This document shows, one piece after another, positions 3,513 through 36,697 of a stretch of 51,684 bases of DNA. A model generated the notes under the pieces. The model did no database searches, was not told where the DNA came from, and saw nothing but the letters and a program-made list of their open reading frames with translations. This DNA comes from a virus. Within the stretch, counting starts at the first letter, position 1; each line of letters opens with the position of its first letter. The position numbers and the translations under genes were made by a program. Location of the stretch: positions 1 to 51,684 of IMG/VR virus record IMGVR_UViG_3300044834_000092. One strand, written 5' to 3'.

Positions 3513-5148
3513 TAGGATTGCTCCTAACTGGAGCTATTGGCCGACCTGCACAGTAGTCATCTGCAGCCTCAAGCAACCACGCTTTATGTTCGTCGTCGCC
3601 GTGAAGGATTGCCGTTGCAAATGCCCTTACGTTCTCCCCCACCTCTTTCCTAACCGGCGCCGAGGGAAAATCCCCGTCGGCTATTGCTCTCCTCTGTGCA
3701 AGAGCTACACAAGAGCCGAAAGCATCACAGCGTTTATGATCCGAACATTTTGTATGCCAGTAGCACGCGCGCTCGGCCGGCGCTGATTGAGGGGAGCGGG
3801 AGAGGGCGGCGTCAATTTGTTTAATAAGTTGGTCGTATTGGGGTCCGCCACCGTATCTGCCGTTGGTTTGATGATAGTAGACCGTCAGCTTTTCCTTCGC
3901 ACATTTCAGCGCCTCCACCATTTCTGCGAAGGCGGGGGATGTGGTGGTCGCTGCCGTGGCTTTTAGGCGGTCGTACATCTCCTTTCCGCGCTCGGTGAGT
4001 TCGCCATTGATAATGTAATGGATAAGCTCGACCCCACTCCCCGCTGCTGATCCTGGTGGCGGGGGAGAGGCGGGCGAAGGCTCGCCACGGCGACTTACGG
4101 CGAAGAGAGCGCCTTTGATAGCGGCGATAACAGCTAGGGTTTCCGCGCCGTATCGTATGCCCACCTCACTCCCATTAACCCTTGAACGAGGCAGACAATT
4201 AGCGAACCAGTCATCAACTTTCTTCAGCGCATCTACAAGCTGCCACCCCTCCGGCCCGCCCGCTTGCTGCTTTGGGTCTGGGGGGAAAGTATAGTTCAGC
4301 GGATTGAGCGCGCGTTCGAGCGCGCGTAGTTGCGCGAAATACTTGTCCTGCGGCGTGCGATCCAGTGCCCCGCTTCCCACCATTGCCATGCGGAATGCTT
4401 CGGCAGCACGGATGAGATCGTTTAGCCATTGGCGCCGGTCTTTCTCCCCTTCGTTGCTCGGAGAGTTGGCCACTGGTGATCCGGGGGCGGAGTTTGTCGC
4501 CCTAGCGATAGCTGCGCTAGTTTTCTGTTGGCTGAAGAAGAGGCGATCAGCCCAATCTCCATCTTTACAGTTGAAACCTGTCAGCGCAGCTTCCGAGATA
4601 ATCTTTTGAACATTAAGCAGCGCAGCGAGAAGAGCATCCTCCGGCCTCTGTTCACCAGTGGTGAGACTGCTAGGAAACGCGGAGGCAATTGTCTCCGGCT
4701 TAATACTTCCATCCCCTTCTCTTGGGGGAGAGGAAGCGAGGGCGCGGGCCTGCCGCACAAGATCGGGTGTTAGTTTCGCACTGGCGAGTGCGCGGGCTGA
4801 TATGGCATCTGGACCATCTGAGTAGGTATCGCGCCATAGTTCGACAGCCCCAACAACTTCGCAAATTTGTTTTACTGAGGCGAGTAGGGATTCGGCGGTG
4901 GTGGCGCGTGCGATGGCTTCACGTTCCCTTCGTAAAGCGACGGTGAGCGGCGTATCGCTGTCGTTGATGAGTGACAGCAGGCAGGCTATCTCCTTATTCT
5001 TTGCTTTGAGAGCGGCTGACAGTCCAGCTATGCGAACATCCCTGGCGTCAAGGTGCGCCTTGTTGTACGGAACGCCGCCTTGCGAGCATATAATTGGAGG
5101 CAGCCGCTCGATCAGGTCCGTCATTTCATTCGTATCCGGTTGAGACAT
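3505..5148 (-). CDS. Mosaic hypothetical phage protein, 547 aa
   Basis: The longest gene of the leftward operon. The N-terminus has a helical, MTDLIERL-type opening found in many small phage proteins (the ATG at 5124 is an alternative start; neither start has a clear ribosome-binding site). A coiled segment follows at about residues 38-90. Several unrelated helical modules are then joined by Ser/Pro linkers (ASSPPREGDGS, SAPGSPVANSPSNEGE, SPASPPPPGSAAGSG). The last 100 residues include a Cys-rich patch (CYWHTKCSDHKRCDAFGSC). The linkers resemble the 3' end plus ribosome-binding site of another gene in this operon (5763-6260), suggesting fusion of former small genes. No enzyme domain recognised. 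Confidence 0.6.
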   Translation of the reverse strand: MSQPDTNEMTDLIERLPPIICSQGGVPYNKAHLDARDVRIAGLSAALKAKNKEIACLLSLINDSDTPLTVALRREREAIARATTAESLLASVKQICEVVGAVELWRDTYSDGPDAISARALASAKLTPDLVRQARALASSPPREGDGSIKPETIASAFPSSLTTGEQRPEDALLAALLNVQKIISEAALTGFNCKDGDWADRLFFSQQKTSAAIARATNSAPGSPVANSPSNEGEKDRRQWLNDLIRAAEAFRMAMVGSGALDRTPQDKYFAQLRALERALNPLNYTFPPDPKQQAGGPEGWQLVDALKKVDDWFANCLPRSRVNGSEVGIRYGAETLAVIAAIKGALFAVSRRGEPSPASPPPPGSAAGSGVELIHYIINGELTERGKEMYDRLKATAATTTSPAFAEMVEALKCAKEKLTVYYHQTNGRYGGGPQYDQLIKQIDAALSRSPQSAPAERACYWHTKCSDHKRCDAFGSCVALAQRRAIADGDFPSAPVRKEVGENVRAFATAILHGDDEHKAWLLEAADDYCAGRPIAPVRSNPNA

Positions 5149-11591: not shown

Positions 11592-12227
11592 TCAGCGGCG
11601 ACCGTATTTGCCCACCACGCGGTGGCATTGTTGCCATTCCGCTCTGGAAAGGGTGAACTTTTTGGGAGGATTCCACTGCTCGACGTGCCACTGCGTCGCG
11701 GTTTTGCTCACGAAGCTCTTAATCGTGGCCCGCACCGTTCCCTTCCCGTCATCGGCGTAAAAAACACAGGCCTCGCCGCGGATCGGTGGCAAATGGGGAT
11801 GCACCAAGGCGGTGTCGCCCGGCTTAAATTCCGGGATCATCGAATCGAGCGAGATGATAAGGCCGTAGCCGTCTTTGACCTCGGCCAGGGGTGCCGGACG
11901 CCGAACATAATCCACAGGGTCGGTCGACAAGATGATCGCTCCCCCACCGCCTTCGACCGAAGCATATACGGGGAGATTGCGGTCGCCGACCAAATCTTTT
12001 ACAGGTTTGGTGCTTGTTTTGTCGGTTGAATCAACTATTCCGTAATGTAAGTCTGTCATCGGCAAGTCTAAAACTCTGTATATTTTAACTAAATGCCGCG
12101 AGTCCTTTGTGTCGTTGCTTTCGATCTTCTTAATTGCAACCTGGGAAATGTTGACTTTCTCTCCAAGGGTGGCTTGAGACCATCCTTTGGCTTTCCGAGC
12201 AGCTTTGATCTTCTCGCCCAACTTCAT
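11592..12227 (-). CDS. CI-type phage repressor, XRE HTH plus S24 peptidase domain, 211 aa
   Basis: Residues 1-50 are a canonical XRE helix-turn-helix (GEKIKAARKAKGWSQATLGE, then VNISQVAIKKIES). A linker leads to a LexA/CI-like domain with VYASVEGGGGAIIL (likely cleavage region), DYVRRPAPLAEVKDGYG, then LDSMIPEFKPGDTALV carrying the nucleophilic Ser, and a Lys in VRATIKSFV as the probable general base. The usual GDSM is LDSM here. It should repress both early promoters and be inactivated after RecA-dependent self-cleavage. An ATG at 12293 would add 22 residues, but that stretch contains the rightward -35 and an operator, so I prefer 12227. No clear ribosome-binding site is visible at either start. 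Confidence 0.9.
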   Translation of the reverse strand: MKLGEKIKAARKAKGWSQATLGEKVNISQVAIKKIESNDTKDSRHLVKIYRVLDLPMTDLHYGIVDSTDKTSTKPVKDLVGDRNLPVYASVEGGGGAIILSTDPVDYVRRPAPLAEVKDGYGLIISLDSMIPEFKPGDTALVHPHLPPIRGEACVFYADDGKGTVRATIKSFVSKTATQWHVEQWNPPKKFTLSRAEWQQCHRVVGKYGRR

Positions 12228-12267
12228 CGTGGGCTGCTGGCTATCACCAAAGTTATCGGCAGTCTCG

Positions 12268-12281
12268 ATAACATTAGTTCT
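12268..12281. promoter_or_regulatory. Imperfect repressor operator
   Basis: ATAACATTAGTTCT matches the operator in 12 of 14 positions and lies 24 bp from the perfect site at 12292. It abuts the -35 of the rightward promoter and lies upstream of the preferred repressor start, so it may serve autoregulation. Confidence 0.5.
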
Positions 12282-12308
12282 TGACACTGTCATAACGAAT
12301 GTTATTTT
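12281..12308 (+). promoter_or_regulatory. Rightward early promoter (PR-like)
   Basis: TTGACA (12281-12286), 16-bp spacer, TATTTT (12303-12308). A perfect operator lies in the spacer and -10. The predicted transcription start is close to 12315, which is the ATG of the Cro-like gene, so the first transcript may be leaderless. Confidence 0.65.
12292..12305. promoter_or_regulatory. Repressor operator OR (palindrome)
   Basis: ATAACGAATGTTAT is the third intact copy of ATAAC-N4-GTTAT. It overlaps the spacer and -10 of the rightward promoter. Confidence 0.7.
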
Positions 12309-14251: not shown

Positions 14252-14433
14252 ACCACCTCGATTACCGCAAAAACGCTCGCCGCCGCTGTATCGACGTAAA
14301 GGTATCTCGCGCCATGGCCGAGCGCCATGAGCCGACTCGTTCCGAACTGCGCAAAATTCTGGCCGACGCCGCGCGCTTCACCGCCGATCTCCCTACCGAA
14401 GCCCACCAGCTCGACGGGGAAGGCGAATTATGA
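14248..14433 (+). CDS. Small basic protein, 61 aa
   Basis: Sits between two genes with 4-nt overlaps on both sides, which strongly suggests translation. Sequence is basic at the start (MNHLDYRKNARRRCIDVKVS) and then helical (RSELRKILADAARFTADL). It precedes the DNA methyltransferase and may be a partner or merely a coupling gene. Unknown function. Confidence 0.55.
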   Translation: MNHLDYRKNARRRCIDVKVSRAMAERHEPTRSELRKILADAARFTADLPTEAHQLDGEGEL

Positions 14434-15674
14434 CCGTGCGGGTCGAAACCTTCCTCGGTGGACGGGTGACGCAATACTGCGGCGACGTGCGCGCCGTGCT
14501 GGCCAGCACGCCGGCGGATCATTTCGATTGCGTGGTGACTTCCCCGCCGTACTACGGCCTACGCACCTACGGCACCAAGGCGCAAATCTGGGGCGGGACC
14601 GCTAGCTGCAAACACCGCTGGGGCGCGCAGATCGTCGACCGATCCCGCCTCACTCCAGGCATTCGCGGCAGCGGCCTTGATGATGGTGGCCGGGCCCAAG
14701 CCCGCGCCTCAAGGTTTGAAAAACGCTCTACCTTCTGCCAGCGATGCGGTGCCTGGCGAGGAGAGCTCGGGCTAGAGCCATCCATCGATCTGCACGTGAG
14801 CAATCTTGTCGAAATCGCCGCCGGCGTGCGGCGAGTGATCAAGCCGCGCGGGACGTTTTGGGTTAATTACGGCGACTGTTATGCGACAGCACCGAATGGA
14901 CGCTCGGCAGCGGACACCAAGGCGAATGGCGAAGATGATCGTACTCACCGCGACAAGCCTTTCGACACAGCGAAAGCGTCCGGACTAAAATCTGGCAACT
15001 TGTGCCTTTTGCCTGAGCGTATCGCGCTCGCTTTTCAGGCGGCTGGCTGGATCGTGCGATCTAGAATTATTTGGGGGAAGGCGAACACAAAGCCGGATTC
15101 CAGTGGCCGCTATCGGCCTTCCTACAACCACGAAATGATCTGGATGTTTTCGCGCCAGATGGGCTGTCATTACGACGCGACAGCCGTGCGCCGACCAACG
15201 GCTTCAGCAACAAAAGGTCGACTCGCGCAAAACGTCGAAGGCCAGCAAGGGTCGTTCCGACAGCCAGGAAAAACAAACGGGCCATTCAAGGCAGTCGGTG
15301 AGCAAGATGATCGGTTGCTGCGCGCCTACGAACCAGCCGACGTCGAAGTCTGGCGAATGGCTACGGCTTCTTTCGAGGAAGCCCACTTCGCCACGTTCCC
15401 GCCCGAGCTCGCCGAGCGCTGCATCAAGGCCGGATGTCCGGAAGGTGGATCCGTGCTCGATCCATTCGGTGGCGCCGGCACGACCGCGCTTGTCGCGGCC
15501 TCGCTTGGCCGCTTCCCCACGCTCATAGAGCTCAATCCCGAATACTGCGTTCTTGCCCGCGCCAGGATCGAAGCCGCGTTCATGGGCAAGGACGAAGGCG
15601 CGCGGCACATGACCAAGCAGATCGGCAAAACCGCTGCTGACGCTGGCCCGCTCTTCGCCGGAGCGGTGCCATGA
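14430..15674 (+). CDS. Beta-class DNA methyltransferase (N4-cytosine or N6-adenine), 414 aa
   Basis: Catalytic motif IV is TSPPYYGLRTYG at residues 37-48, and the AdoMet-binding motif I is VLDPFGGAGTTALVA near residue 341. Motif IV preceding motif I places it in the beta class, and SPPY favours cytosine-N4 although adenine is possible. Between them is a zinc-finger-like insert (CKHRWG and FCQRCGAWRGELGLEPS) that I know from phage MTases of this type. No cognate restriction gene is present, so it probably protects phage DNA or alters host regulation. The start overlaps the previous stop. Confidence 0.9.
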   Translation: MTVRVETFLGGRVTQYCGDVRAVLASTPADHFDCVVTSPPYYGLRTYGTKAQIWGGTASCKHRWGAQIVDRSRLTPGIRGSGLDDGGRAQARASRFEKRSTFCQRCGAWRGELGLEPSIDLHVSNLVEIAAGVRRVIKPRGTFWVNYGDCYATAPNGRSAADTKANGEDDRTHRDKPFDTAKASGLKSGNLCLLPERIALAFQAAGWIVRSRIIWGKANTKPDSSGRYRPSYNHEMIWMFSRQMGCHYDATAVRRPTASATKGRLAQNVEGQQGSFRQPGKTNGPFKAVGEQDDRLLRAYEPADVEVWRMATASFEEAHFATFPPELAERCIKAGCPEGGSVLDPFGGAGTTALVAASLGRFPTLIELNPEYCVLARARIEAAFMGKDEGARHMTKQIGKTAADAGPLFAGAVP

Positions 15675-19915: not shown

Positions 19916-20149
19916 ATGCTGATCGCACGCCGCAAATTCCTCACCGGCCTTGGTGCCGCGCTCGCCGCGCCAGCCATCGTGCGCTACGGCAACCTCATGC
20001 CCGTGCGATCGGTGATCTGGCCGGATGAGGGCGCCTGGGAATTGGGCCGATATAGGCGGGTCGGAAAGATAGTCTTTCTCGAGTGTGCGATTGTTTGGCA
20101 CGCGCCCCGCACCGCCATGGCGGTGCCTTTCGTGCCGCAGCTCGGATGA
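19916..20149 (+). CDS. Small protein with Tat-like signal, 77 aa
   Basis: The N-terminus RRKFLTGLGAALAAPAIV is a twin-arginine signal: two Arg, then F-L-T, hydrophobic helix, A-P-A. The remaining 50 residues are short (NLMPVRSVIWPDE, VGKIVFLECAIVWHAPR). Small Tat-signal proteins of this exact form occur in many alphaproteobacterial phages next to packaging genes. The role is unknown. The stop overlaps the large terminase start. Confidence 0.65.
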   Translation: MLIARRKFLTGLGAALAAPAIVRYGNLMPVRSVIWPDEGAWELGRYRRVGKIVFLECAIVWHAPRTAMAVPFVPQLG

Positions 20150-22605
20150 CCGCGCCCCTCGTCATCCCTCGCGAATCCGGCGAGCGCATCGCGGGCCTGC
20201 TATCCGAGATCAACCGGCGCCGCGACATTGCCTATTGCGAATCCGGCCTGCTGAATTTCATCCGCATGTTCTGGCACATCCTGGAACCGGAAACCCCCTT
20301 GGTCGAGGGCTGGACGCTCGAGGCGATATGCGCACACCTCGAAGCGGTGACCGCGGGTCAGATCACCAGGCTTCTCACCAACGTTTCCCCGGGTGCAACC
20401 AAGTCGTTGACAACAAGTGTTTTTTGGCCCGCGTGGGAATGGGGCCCGATGAACATGCCGCATCTGCGCGGCATCGACTTTTCCTACGCCTCGCACCTCA
20501 CCGAGCGCGACACCGGCCGGTTCCGCGATGTCGTGACCTCCCCGCTCTATCAGCATATGTTCGGCGACCGGTTCCGCGTCACCAAGGCTGGCGAGCAGAA
20601 AGTCGCCAACGACAAGACCGGCTGGAAAATCCCGTCTTCGGTCGGCGGAGTATCTACCGGCGAACGTGGCGATCGGGTAAGGCTGGACGATCCCCACAAC
20701 GTCCGGCAGGGCGAGTCCGACGCGGTGCGCGGCTCGACCGTGGAGTGGTTTGGCCGCTCCATGTCGAACCGGCTCAACGACATGCAGAAGTCCGCCATCG
20801 TGGTGACGATGCAGCGGATCCACGAAAATGACGTGTCCGGGCATATACTCGCCAACGACCTGGGCTATGTGCCTCTGATCATCCCGGCGGAGTGGGACGA
20901 GGGCCGGCGCTACGTCAACGGATTTGGCTGGACCGACCCGCGCAAGGTCGAGGGCGAACTGTTCTGGCCCGAGCGGTTTTCCAAGGCGATCATCGCGCGG
21001 CAGAAATTGGAGCTCGGGCCATACGCATTCTGCACGCCGCATGAGTCCCCCGTTCTCATGGGCGACCTCTCGCTTAAACCAATCGGGACGGTTCAATCCG
21101 GCGACGCCGTGATCGGCTTTACGACCGATACCGCCGCCACAAAGCAGGGCGAGGTATGCACTCGGAGAAAGCTGGTCCCCACCAAAGTCCTATCTATCAG
21201 CAAGTCCGTTCAAAAGATCGTTCGGATAACGCTCGACAGTGGTCGCGTCGTCAGGTGCACGCCAGATCACAAATGGTACAGGGGAAAAGATGGGGGGCGG
21301 CGCGGAAAGCACGATGTGAGGCCGCTGTATCTTCCAGCCATTGTCGGGCGGAAACTGATGCGCGTCTGCGAACCTGAGATCGTGCCGGCCGCTGACGAGA
21401 GACAAGCGGGTTGGCTATCCGGCTTTTTCGACGGCGAAGGCAGCGTTACGTTATCAAAGCGCCACAGCGGCTATCGCCCAACGCCAATTATCACGTTCTC
21501 GCAAGGCGCTGACCGAAACCTACCGCTTTGCGACAAATTAGAGGAATCGCTGACGGCCCTCGGGTTTAAGTTCGGTTGCCACCGCCGTCAGAACGAAGCC
21601 GGCACACCGATGCATTGGTATTACCTGCTGTCGGATGGCATCACGACCTTGCAGCGGTTCATCCATGTGGTGAAGCCGACAAAATGGCGCGAGCGGATGA
21701 TCGAACACGCCCTTGGTGCGAAATTCATTAATCGCATCGAGAAGGTCGTTTCCATCGAGCCGGACGGGGAGGAAGTGGTTTATGGCCTCGAAACAACCAC
21801 CGGCAACTACGTTGTCTGGGGACTCGCGTCTTCGAACTCCGCGCAATATCAGCAATCTCCCGAGCCGGCGGGCGGCGGCATCATCAAACGCGAATGGTGG
21901 CAGGTCTGGGACCACAAGGAAGCGCTGCGCCAGGGCCTCGCCATGCCTGTGGTCGCGGCCGGGACAAAGGCGCCGGTGCCCTACCCCGCTTTTTCCTACA
22001 TCGTGGCGAGCCTCGACACCGCCTATACCCAAAAGGATGAGAACGATCCTTCGGGCTGCACGGTCTGGGGGGTCTGGACCGATTTGTACGAGGTGCAGCG
22101 CGTCATGCTGATCACGGCCTGGGCCGAATGGCTTGAACTCAACGCCCTGGTGGAAAAGGTGGCGCAGACCTGCCGCACCTATCGGGTCTCGCGCATCTTG
22201 ATCGAGGCCAAGGCGTCCGGGCTTTCCGTGGCGCAGGAGTTGCGCCGCCGCTATCTCACGGTGGGCCATGCCCTGGCGCTGAATCCCAAGACCAAGGATA
22301 GGGGCGACTTCGCGGTGCAACTCATTGATCCAAAGAGAATGGATAAAACCTCTAGAACGTATGCGGTGCAGCACCTATTCTCTGCCGGGATGATTTACGC
22401 GCCGGACCGGGACTGGTCCGAAAAGGTGATCAGCGAAATGGCGATGTTCCCGAAGGGCGCGCACGACGATCTGCACGACACCGCGACGATGGCGCTGTCC
22501 CACCTGCGCACCATTGGCCTGTTGAATCTGCCCGACGAGCGCAAGGTGGACGACGACGAGGCCAGTCTGTACCGCAGGAAGCTTGAACCGATTTATCAGG
22601 TGTGA
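20146..22605 (+). CDS. terL: Large terminase subunit, intein-containing precursor, 819 aa
   Basis: ATG at 20146 overlaps the upstream stop. The ATPase half has a Walker A variant (NVSPGATKSL, about residues 79-88) and Walker B (RVRLDDPH, about 177-184). The nuclease half has Asp624 in ASLDTAYTQKD, Glu687 in LIEAKASG and Asp774/775 in AHDDLHD. A 269-residue intein splits the protein at GPYAF/SAQYQQSPEP, a highly conserved motif, leaving about 550 residues after splicing, a normal TerL length. The protein translocates DNA into the procapsid and cuts it. The next genes are portal and head genes. Confidence 0.95.
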   Translation: MTAPLVIPRESGERIAGLLSEINRRRDIAYCESGLLNFIRMFWHILEPETPLVEGWTLEAICAHLEAVTAGQITRLLTNVSPGATKSLTTSVFWPAWEWGPMNMPHLRGIDFSYASHLTERDTGRFRDVVTSPLYQHMFGDRFRVTKAGEQKVANDKTGWKIPSSVGGVSTGERGDRVRLDDPHNVRQGESDAVRGSTVEWFGRSMSNRLNDMQKSAIVVTMQRIHENDVSGHILANDLGYVPLIIPAEWDEGRRYVNGFGWTDPRKVEGELFWPERFSKAIIARQKLELGPYAFCTPHESPVLMGDLSLKPIGTVQSGDAVIGFTTDTAATKQGEVCTRRKLVPTKVLSISKSVQKIVRITLDSGRVVRCTPDHKWYRGKDGGRRGKHDVRPLYLPAIVGRKLMRVCEPEIVPAADERQAGWLSGFFDGEGSVTLSKRHSGYRPTPIITFSQGADRNLPLCDKLEESLTALGFKFGCHRRQNEAGTPMHWYYLLSDGITTLQRFIHVVKPTKWRERMIEHALGAKFINRIEKVVSIEPDGEEVVYGLETTTGNYVVWGLASSNSAQYQQSPEPAGGGIIKREWWQVWDHKEALRQGLAMPVVAAGTKAPVPYPAFSYIVASLDTAYTQKDENDPSGCTVWGVWTDLYEVQRVMLITAWAEWLELNALVEKVAQTCRTYRVSRILIEAKASGLSVAQELRRRYLTVGHALALNPKTKDRGDFAVQLIDPKRMDKTSRTYAVQHLFSAGMIYAPDRDWSEKVISEMAMFPKGAHDDLHDTATMALSHLRTIGLLNLPDERKVDDDEASLYRRKLEPIYQV
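21031..21837 (+). mobile_element. Intein with LAGLIDADG-like nuclease inside the large terminase
   Basis: Starts at Cys296 (CTPHESPVLMGD) and ends at Asn564 (GNYVVWGLASSN) with Ser565 as the +1 residue. Block A is CTPHESP then SGDAVIG; block B is VRCTPDHKWY; a homing-endonuclease motif LSGFFDGEGSV lies at about residues 421-431; and block F is VYGLETTTGNYVV. The usual penultimate His is Ser and the block F Asp is Gly. Precise removal gives GPYAFSAQYQQSP, matching normal terminases, so the boundary is well supported. The insertion is in a conserved motif joining ATPase and nuclease, as expected for homing. Confidence 0.9.
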
Positions 22606-33728: not shown

Positions 33729-34388
33729 ATGGCGATCACCACGGCAGCAACGACCAGCGGCAAATCCGATTTGCTCTCCGCGCTGTTCTGTTTCAATCAA
33801 AGCCGGACCCCGACCGGGGACACCACCAACGCGGCGTTCACCATCGCCAACGTGTCGAGCCTGACCGGGCTTGCCGTGGGGATGGGGGTGTCAGGCACCG
33901 GAATCCCGGCAAGCACCGTGCTGGCCTCCATCGATTCTGCGACCGGGATCACGCTGAGCAAGGCGGCGACCGCAACCAATTCCGGGGTCACCCTGACCTT
34001 CACCGGCGACGCCATCAAACTCGCGCTGATCAAGGTGTCGATGTCCGGCACTTATGGCGCCGCGACCACCAACTATACCGACGTGACCGGCAACAGCGAC
34101 GAAGTGGCGAGCGGCGGTGGCTACACCACGGCTGGCGTTGCGCTCACCAATGTCAGCCCGACCTCGACCGGCACCACGGCCTTTATCGACTTTGCCGATC
34201 CAAGTTGGACCTCGGCGACGTTCTCCACCACGGGCTGCATCATCTACAACAACACGCGGCGCGGTCCGGTCGCGACCCGCGCGATCTCTGTGCATGACTT
34301 CGGCGGCACCCAAACCGTGTCGGCCGGAACGTTCACCATCATCATGCCAACGCCGGATTCGTCTAGTGCAATCTACCGTATAGCCTAA
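33729..34388 (+). CDS. Structural protein, beta-rich, 219 aa
   Basis: Thr/Ser/Ala-rich with a beta pattern, including VSSLTGLAVGMGVSGTGIPA and the GxTLSxA segment typical of phage tail proteins. The C-terminal part has FGGTQTVSAGTFTIIMPTPD. The next gene is on the opposite strand and interrupts the tail operon. No enzyme motif. Confidence 0.6.
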   Translation: MAITTAATTSGKSDLLSALFCFNQSRTPTGDTTNAAFTIANVSSLTGLAVGMGVSGTGIPASTVLASIDSATGITLSKAATATNSGVTLTFTGDAIKLALIKVSMSGTYGAATTNYTDVTGNSDEVASGGGYTTAGVALTNVSPTSTGTTAFIDFADPSWTSATFSTTGCIIYNNTRRGPVATRAISVHDFGGTQTVSAGTFTIIMPTPDSSSAIYRIA

Positions 34389-34403
34389 TCGAATTCACAA
34401 TCT

Positions 34404-35588
34404 TCAGTTTGTAGGACGATGATGCACGAAATTTCCACAAGGCGTCGAAAGCGCCTTCTCCGCAGACCAGCCGCTTCGGAGTCGGCGGCTAACGGTGGAG
34501 CCGTCGATTGCGTATTCTTTGCACCAATCGGAAAGTATTTGCGTGCGGCCGCCGACTGTAATGCGCCGGTTAGAGCGCATGTTTCTGTTTTGCTCGCCAC
34601 GTGTGGCCCAACAGCAATTATTCCTGGAATAACCTTTTTCGTTGTCTCGGCGATCAAGAGTTTTTCCGACTGGCTGCAATCCCATTTCTTTCAAGAAGGT
34701 GCCGAAGTCGGACCATTCGGCGACGTAACCAATCCCGCGCCCGCCGTAGTTTTTGTACGCCGGATTCTTCTGGCTGTCGCAACGATGGCGCATCGAGCGC
34801 CAGACCGCCTTGGTTCGCCGCTCTTGCTCCAACCGGTCGTGTTTGGTGACAGTTGTTTTACCAAATACCTCCTCGACCGATTTTCCACTACGAAGTCTTC
34901 GGTCCGCAGTGCGCGGATTGACGCCCTTTGCCGCGCACAGGTCGTGGAAGATGTGGCTCTTTCCATCCAAAATGACATTCCGGTTGTTTCGCCGGTTTCG
35001 GCTTTGGACGGCCATCGTAGCCCAAATGCAGTTCGCCTTGTTGTAAGGGCCGTTGACCATCTTGCGCTCAAGCGTGTGGCGCGATGTGGGCGGGTCGCCC
35101 ATGTCGCCGAGGAAGGCGGCGAAGTCGTCCCATCGTTTGTCGAAGGTAATCCCTCGGCCACCGTAATTCGCGAAACGGCTGTTCTTAGGATTGATGCATC
35201 GGCTTTTGGCGTTGCGCCATGCGAGGTAGGCCTTGGTGTGATCGCGGGAACCGAAGAACAAATCCGGCCGCCTAGATCGCTCTTTGGTCGTGACGGCCTT
35301 GATAGGCTCCCAACCCCTGCTGATGCGTTTCCACACACGGGATTGCTCAAGCCCGTATTCGCGGCACCACGCGCTCATGTTCTTCGTGACGCCAGCGATG
35401 GTGATAGCGACATCGCGCTTGCCGATGATGCGGCGCGGCTTCTTGTTGAACGGTCGGCTGATCGCTTGCTCGAATGTGTCGCCACGCTCGATGCGCATGT
35501 AGATGCGCAGATAGGGCAGATCGAGTTCTCGGCACCACTCGCCAAGCGTCTGGGTTTTTCGACCTCGTTTGTAAAAGCGCGAGCGCAT
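34404..35588 (-). CDS. Putative free-standing homing endonuclease with duplicated YGGRGI modules, 394 aa
   Basis: On the opposite strand, inserted between two plus-strand tail genes. Two modules of about 80 residues (118-200 and 259-340) each have W-x-(2)-M/AK-x-R-C, KNPAYKNYGGRGI, an acidic W-x2-F segment, GYSRNNCCWAT and Q-x-RN. The first module has LERKMVNG where the second has LDRRDNEKG, so it may be degenerate. Four copies of a short HTH-like unit (13-44, 68-99, 212-242 and 349-380), such as SDWCKEYAIDGSTVSRRLRS, surround them. I know the YGGRGI module from phage HNH-like nucleases. I chose the ATG at 35588; a TTG at 35624 is less likely. Confidence 0.7.
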   Translation of the reverse strand: MRSRFYKRGRKTQTLGEWCRELDLPYLRIYMRIERGDTFEQAISRPFNKKPRRIIGKRDVAITIAGVTKNMSAWCREYGLEQSRVWKRISRGWEPIKAVTTKERSRRPDLFFGSRDHTKAYLAWRNAKSRCINPKNSRFANYGGRGITFDKRWDDFAAFLGDMGDPPTSRHTLERKMVNGPYNKANCIWATMAVQSRNRRNNRNVILDGKSHIFHDLCAAKGVNPRTADRRLRSGKSVEEVFGKTTVTKHDRLEQERRTKAVWRSMRHRCDSQKNPAYKNYGGRGIGYVAEWSDFGTFLKEMGLQPVGKTLDRRDNEKGYSRNNCCWATRGEQNRNMRSNRRITVGGRTQILSDWCKEYAIDGSTVSRRLRSGWSAEKALSTPCGNFVHHRPTN

Positions 35589-35629
35589 AGCAACCACTTT
35601 CACAATATCTAGGACAAAAGACAAGCAAA

Positions 35630-36697
35630 ATGTCCGCGCTGCTCAGCATCGTCAAAATGACCACGGCGACGACCGGGACCGGCACGATCACGCTGGGCTC
35701 GGCCGTGTCGGGCTTTTTGACCGCGGCGCAGTCCAACGCCGTGAATGGCCGCACCTATTCCTATGGCATCGCGGACGGTTCCAATTCCGAGGTGGGCTAC
35801 GGCGTCTATACCTCGTCTGGAACCACGCTGACCCGCAACGTCATCGCCTCGACCAACGGCAATGCCGCGATCAATCTGTCCGGCTCGGCCGTGGTGTTCT
35901 TTACGCCTAACGAGCGGGACTTCCTCACCGGGGGCGAAACAGACGTGGCCTCGGCCACGACCTGCGACATCGGAGCAGCCGCGACCCGCCAGGTCAGGAT
36001 CACCGGCACCACGACCATCACGTCGTTCGGCACCGTGGCCAATGCGATTTGCTTGGTCCGGTTCGCCGGGATACTGACCCTCACCTATAACGCGACCAGC
36101 TTGATCCTGCTGGGCGCCGCGACCCGCACCACAGCGGCGGGCGACGTTGGTCTCTATACCTCTGATGCGTCCGGCAATTGGCGTGAGCTGATGTATTTCC
36201 GCGCCGCCTCCGATCTCACCTCGATGTTTGTCGCGCCGGGCCAGATCAAGTTCCCGGCGACGCAAAACGCCTCGGCCGATGCGAATACGTTGGATGACTA
36301 CGAGGAGGGAACGTTCACCCCCACGTTCACGGCATCCACCACACCGCCGACAGGCGTGACCTATGCCGAGCAAGTCGGTGCATACACCAAGATTGGGAAC
36401 CTGGTGACCTACTCTTATTCGTGTGGGTTGAGTTCGAAGGGTACCGGCGGGGTTGGGCGGCCCGAGGTTGCCGGACTTCCGTTTTCTCAGGGCGCGCTCG
36501 GGCGCCCCGGCGGTTTAGCATTTTTTGGTAGTTACGCCAACGTCACCCTCTCTGACAACATTCAACTTTACGGGTTCAACACCGGCACCAATGTCACATA
36601 TTACGAAATTGGAGAGGCTTTGTCATTTTCGGATGCGGCTTGGAGTGCTGTCGGAAACGCCTCATATATCCGGCAAACCGGCCATTACTATGTTTGA
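35630..36697 (+). CDS. Tail fibre protein, 355 aa
   Basis: N-terminal region includes GTGTITLGSAVSGFLTAAQS and YGVYTSSGTTLTRNVIAST, a repeated adhesin-like domain seen in many tail fibres. The C-terminal 110 residues begin LDDYEEGTFTPTFTAS and continue VTYAEQVGAYTKIGNLV, with a GLPF turn. That domain is a common receptor-binding tip of tail fibres. It probably recognises the host surface. Confidence 0.75.
   Translation: MSALLSIVKMTTATTGTGTITLGSAVSGFLTAAQSNAVNGRTYSYGIADGSNSEVGYGVYTSSGTTLTRNVIASTNGNAAINLSGSAVVFFTPNERDFLTGGETDVASATTCDIGAAATRQVRITGTTTITSFGTVANAICLVRFAGILTLTYNATSLILLGAATRTTAAGDVGLYTSDASGNWRELMYFRAASDLTSMFVAPGQIKFPATQNASADANTLDDYEEGTFTPTFTASTTPPTGVTYAEQVGAYTKIGNLVTYSYSCGLSSKGTGGVGRPEVAGLPFSQGALGRPGGLAFFGSYANVTLSDNIQLYGFNTGTNVTYYEIGEALSFSDAAWSAVGNASYIRQTGHYYV

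Follow-up and report, generated by a model that had tools for sequence, protein, structure and literature searches.

A two-module YGGRGI gene lying antisense beside a phage tail-fibre-type gene is probably a free-standing homing-type endonuclease gene

The window analysed here is the whole of a 51,684-nucleotide stretch of viral DNA (IMG/VR record IMGVR_UViG_3300044834_000092). On its minus strand, a reading frame that opens with an ATG at 35588 and closes with a stop codon at 34404-34406 encodes a protein of 394 aa, in which the motif YGGRGI occurs twice, at aa 142 and aa 281. The gene stands between two plus-strand genes, g219 and a tail-fibre-type gene, in agreement with the opposite-strand location described in an earlier note on this DNA. 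The plus strand carries a 397-codon open frame antisense to the nuclease gene (34419-35612). This frame has no PHROG match and is therefore taken as a chance antisense frame; lacking any family match, it was rejected as a true coding gene. The features of the locus are as follows.

33729-34388, plus strand: g219, PHROG 644 family (E 3e-13); ends 15 bp from the nuclease stop codon; homologues in relatives
34389-35629, no strand: occupied junction, 1241 bp separating flanking genes that are 0-20 bp apart in relatives
34404-35588, minus strand: whole nuclease gene, HTH-HTH-nuclease-HTH-nuclease-HTH, from the open reading frame, the PHROG 3377 match (E 1.6e-95) and the profile architecture
35457-35579, minus strand: HTH unit 1, aa 4-44; HTH profile E 7.5e-7 at aa 11-44
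35286-35411, minus strand: HTH unit 2, aa 60-101; HTH profile E 8.6e-13 at aa 62-101
34986-35237, minus strand: nuclease module 1, aa 118-201; YGGRGI, with LERKMV replacing LDRxDN; 105.5 bits, E 6.3e-31
34860-34985, minus strand: HTH unit 3, aa 202-243; HTH profile E 1.6e-7
34572-34817, minus strand: nuclease module 2, aa 258-339; YGGRGI and LDRRDN; 109.1 bits, E 4.7e-32
34584-34661, minus strand: predicted beta-beta-alpha core of module 2 (TLDR ... CCWA ... helix), aligning with the HNH_3 core, P 1.7e-5
34443-34571, minus strand: HTH unit 4, aa 340-382; HTH profile E 1.5e-17
35630-36697, plus strand: tail-fibre-type gene; starts 41 bp from the nuclease ATG; N-terminus common to the tail-fibre genes of related phages

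Elsewhere in the window, the gene for the terminase large subunit (20083-22605, plus strand, 840 aa) seems to be interrupted in frame by an intein bearing a LAGLIDADG-like motif (AGWLSGFFDGEGSV). The terminase matches, at aa 70-263 and 586-811, flank this putative intein, and GC3 falls to 0.57 inside it. A minus-strand gene at 11592-12293 encodes an HTH_3 and Peptidase_S24 protein resembling the CI/LexA repressors, which suggests a temperate phage, and a DNA methylase gene (PF01555, E 1.2e-32) lies at 14430-15674 on the plus strand.

The domain order listed above had been claimed from the letters alone, and it was reproduced when a nuclease profile and an HTH profile, built from 87 modules, were kept separate. 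The four HTH units score 28-62 bits against the HTH profile. Because units 1 and 2 were absent from the training alignment, their E-values are independent. The match of the 394-aa protein to PHROG 3377, 'HNH endonuclease', falls in four stretches, and several further PHROG HNH families also match. The nuclease module profile recognizes both modules, and HTH units 3 and 4 each directly follow one of them, as is characteristic of PHROG 3377. This family is present in hundreds of phages (about 763 phage records by tblastn). Searches of Pfam, NCBIfam and PDB sequences with the 394-aa protein gave no convincing match, the full-length protein has no close relatives in viral and genome collections, and no assay of the YGGRGI/PHROG 3377 family was found in the open-licence literature.

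Two nuclease modules in one chain are rare. A collection of 194 ORFs with a nuclease module, taken from bacterial genomes, phage records and IMG/VR, includes six with two modules. Besides the window's own, these are L046 (virus), L223 (Chlamydia MAG), L224 (Babeliales MAG), L225 (Desulfobacterota) and L295 (Aphanothece). The exact order HTH-HTH-N-HTH-N-HTH is found in the window only, while extra HTH units by themselves also occur in several one-module proteins. Judged by its sequence, the window protein is a two-module architectural variant within a common phage family, rare and not unique. In the two-module proteins of L223 and L224, the first modules group together (100/99) and so do the second (91/46); the pair is thus older than the split between L223 and L224.

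Structure prediction for each module was a check proposed in the earlier note, and both modules, already matched by the profiles, fold confidently in AlphaFold2. The model of module 2 with HTH unit 4 (87 sequences) has a mean pLDDT of 96.9, with module 2 at 97 and the HTH unit at about 95. Strands at 56-59 and 71-74 followed by a helix at 76-81 (module numbering) give the beta-beta-alpha order of HNH nucleases. Module 1, modelled with HTH units, shows the same order of elements at pLDDT 92-98 (about 97 for the module), with linkers at approximately residues 49-59 and 96-110 poorly predicted. Every HTH unit was modelled as a beta-hairpin with helices, confidently for unit 3 (pLDDT 93-96) and unit 4, with fair confidence for unit 1 (hairpin and three helices at aa 5-44, pLDDT about 71-85) and less so for unit 2 (about 50-77). 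Foldseek against the PDB found no significant match for the models of either module; PacI and the I-TevI DNA-binding domain, at E 3.5-8.4, were rejected as fold matches. The best matches among viral models resemble members of the same YGGRGI family.

The kinship with HNH enzymes was seen instead by profile comparison. Using aligned HNH_3 proteins from related phage records, the YGGRGI family matched HNH_3 with P 1.7e-5 and a probability of 79%, against P 0.69 for a control profile, and the Arg of LDR was aligned with the catalytic His of HNH. A six-frame search of 50 kb also recovered gp59 of phage ICP1, a distant relative, as a match to the nuclease profile (E 5.5e-8), with Lys at the Arg position and no HTH match. 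On these comparisons the family is better described as a divergent nuclease derived from HNH than as a classical HNH. As the core appears HNH-derived, a nuclease-type fold is likely.

Arg replaces the catalytic HNH His in both window modules and in 194/194 other modules. Some of these modules were collected by a genome scan with the Arg written into its search pattern; the first 85, found by patterns without it, have Arg in 100% of cases all the same. Since the general-base His of HNH is an Arg in every family member, activity cannot be assumed. The earlier note had further argued that module 1 lacks the LDR Asp and may be only structural. The observation is literally true, the motif reading LER, but the inactivity argument does not hold in that form, Glu being a normal variant at this position (58), where the other modules have Asp in 129/194 and Glu in 61/194 (31%). 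The real peculiarity of module 1 is not the Glu but the missing D-N pair directly after LER: it has neither D/N at position 61 nor N at 62 (+2 and +3 after the Arg), a joint loss that it shares with one other among 196 modules. Module 2 has Glu at position 47, where Asp is usual. Both window modules retain the remaining near-invariant residues checked.

The family-wide Arg and the incomplete module 1 are what one would expect of a domesticated or decaying gene, in which the HTH array binds DNA, one or both modules are inactive, and the product acts as a regulator or as a helper of recombination or packaging, if it is not simply a dying selfish gene. The HNH protein of HK97, discussed as a domesticated example (PMC10448857), provides a precedent. 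However, nearly all invariant residues are kept in both modules, the frame is intact, the gene is missing from relatives and is not near the terminase gene, and the family has the wide distribution among phages that mobile genes usually show. We therefore consider domestication or decay unlikely.

The two modules had been thought to arise by internal duplication, and this could not be established. Their identity to each other is 38%, lower than the 43-52% that each shares with relatives in other proteins. FastTree pairs the two (support 0.93), a result set aside as possible long-branch pairing. In two careful IQ-TREE runs, module 2 is instead grouped with the module of L022 (99/86, then 95/76) and module 1 falls in another part of the tree, although AU tests leave the pairing of the two window modules unrejected (p = 0.246 and 0.445). 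GC3 differs between the halves of the gene (p 0.0035); other window genes show the same, and the difference was therefore dropped as evidence of fusion. A duplication that left one active and one structural module would be in keeping with the FastTree pairing, the AU tests and the D-N pair missing in module 1. The greater similarity of each module to other proteins, their separation in the careful trees and the commonness of Glu at LDR argue against it, making such an origin improbable. On the sequence comparisons, fusion is slightly favoured over internal duplication.

We then considered the insertion site. In MW202675, HTVC023P and CRP-603, the homologues of g219 and the tail-fibre gene overlap by one base or are separated by 9-14 bp; 15 IMG/VR contigs (among the L100-L179 junctions) have a gap of 20 bp or less. 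Relatives without the gene thus have the flanking genes joined, as the earlier note's proposed comparison anticipated; the support for an empty site is at the level of gene order, the capsid proteins of the nearest relatives being about 50-60% identical. L006 was rejected as an empty site, the intervening genes being different. Among annotated phages there are no DNA-level relatives of this phage, and single-protein scans with two neighbour genes found no relatives. Scanning with the tail-fibre type of the window itself turned up 39 loci, and none of them has this nuclease. The nuclease gene is intergenic and antisense, outside any intron or intein, has no Rfam match to an intron RNA, and has a GC3 of 0.68, below that of most neighbours (0.74-0.86). 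In MW202675.1 (L094), the nearest annotated relative, an 'intron associated endonuclease' is encoded at 4256-4912, directly after the tail adaptor gene; it is a different type of mobile nuclease, and the g219 homologue follows a few genes later.

Most other sampled junctions hold 0.56-2.7 kb of different genes between g219 and the tail fibre. The junction is thus a hotspot for cargo in general, and position by itself is no proof of site-specific homing. The nuclease gene could be ordinary cargo, brought to this gene-collecting site by general recombination without homing there, and the many other genes that occupy the junction speak for this. Against it, L022, L035 (identical to L100), L167 and L049 all carry members of the same family in the junction or next to it, some in one orientation and some in the other, and in the tree module 2 is closest to the gene of L022. 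That gene, with one module, sits exactly at the junction (g219 ends at 1638, the nuclease occupies 1693-2361 and the fibre starts at 2363); L022 was retrieved by its similarity to module 2 before its genomic position was checked. L035 and L167 each have one family member inside the junction, and that of L049 is antisense to, and convergent with, a g219-like gene whose 3' end it overlaps. Arrival as ordinary cargo is, in our estimate, very unlikely.

A homing-type insertion, as the earlier note proposed, is supported by the absence of the gene from relatives, by flanks that abut there and by a one-module relative at the same junction. Taken together, these observations make it probable that the locus is a free-standing homing-type endonuclease gene, inserted antisense between the PHROG 644 gene and the tail-fibre-type gene. 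We infer cleavage, its target, homing and any division of labour between the modules. The free-standing endonucleases of T4 are the model for the mechanism (PMC2988022), and phage nuclease genes sit at exchange boundaries (PMC10448857); by analogy with these systems, the likely action would be to cut a gene-less genome, with repair from a gene-bearing one. In a phage without the gene, the HTH units would bind along an extended site in or close to the g219/tail-fibre junction, their number lengthening the stretch recognized, and one or both modules would nick or cut there. Recombinational repair from the gene-bearing phage would then copy the gene and neighbouring sequence into the cut genome, possibly with co-transfer of tail-fibre sequence. 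A chain with two modules might enable a single molecule to nick both strands, as fused two-repeat LAGLIDADG enzymes do; alternatively, one module may be structural, the two acting together on a long asymmetric site as the earlier note suggested. That the protein is a single-chain nuclease with two centres, formed from two homing-type genes joined at a tail-fibre junction, cutting both strands of an asymmetric site and driving tail-fibre exchange between phages, is a decidedly doubtful extension of the homing reading.

In a family found in hundreds of phages, an Arg that never varies where HNH enzymes have their His raises a clear chemical question. The two-module chain would offer a test of whether HNH-type homing enzymes can evolve from one-module nickers to single-chain double cutters, as in LAGLIDADG enzymes, and adjacency to the tail-fibre gene would connect homing with the exchange of host-range genes.

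Among known systems, the IPA-HNH genes, including that of ICP1 gp59, are regarded as free-standing homing genes, and gp59 is described as carrying an AP2 domain at its C-terminus (Barth, Dunham and Seed 2023, PMC10448857). Its nuclease core is homologous to that of the window protein, and the Pfam HNH_3 profile reaches neither. Whereas gp59 combines one module and a Lys at the Arg position with its C-terminal AP2 and has no HTH match, the window protein ends in an HTH unit and has no Pfam AP2 match. With HNH_3 itself (PF13392; I-HmuI and the T4 Mob proteins) the likeness lies in the predicted beta-beta-alpha core: the motif VDHxN...NLR.AT..EQ..N can be aligned with LDRxD...NCRWAT..EQ..N of the window family, which differs in having Arg for the catalytic His and falls below detection by the HNH_3 profile. 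Two-repeat LAGLIDADG enzymes carry two catalytic repeats in one chain and have asymmetric sites. They are comparable to the two modules of the window only in how they might work, the fold being unrelated and the pairing of modules hypothetical. In the YGGRGI proteins of PHROG 3377, also annotated 'PVL ORF-50-like', the same nuclease module and the same HTH unit stand in the same order. These proteins typically carry a single nuclease module and in many cases a Cys-rich domain at the N-terminus, whereas the window protein has two modules and, where the Cys-rich domain stands, two HTH units.
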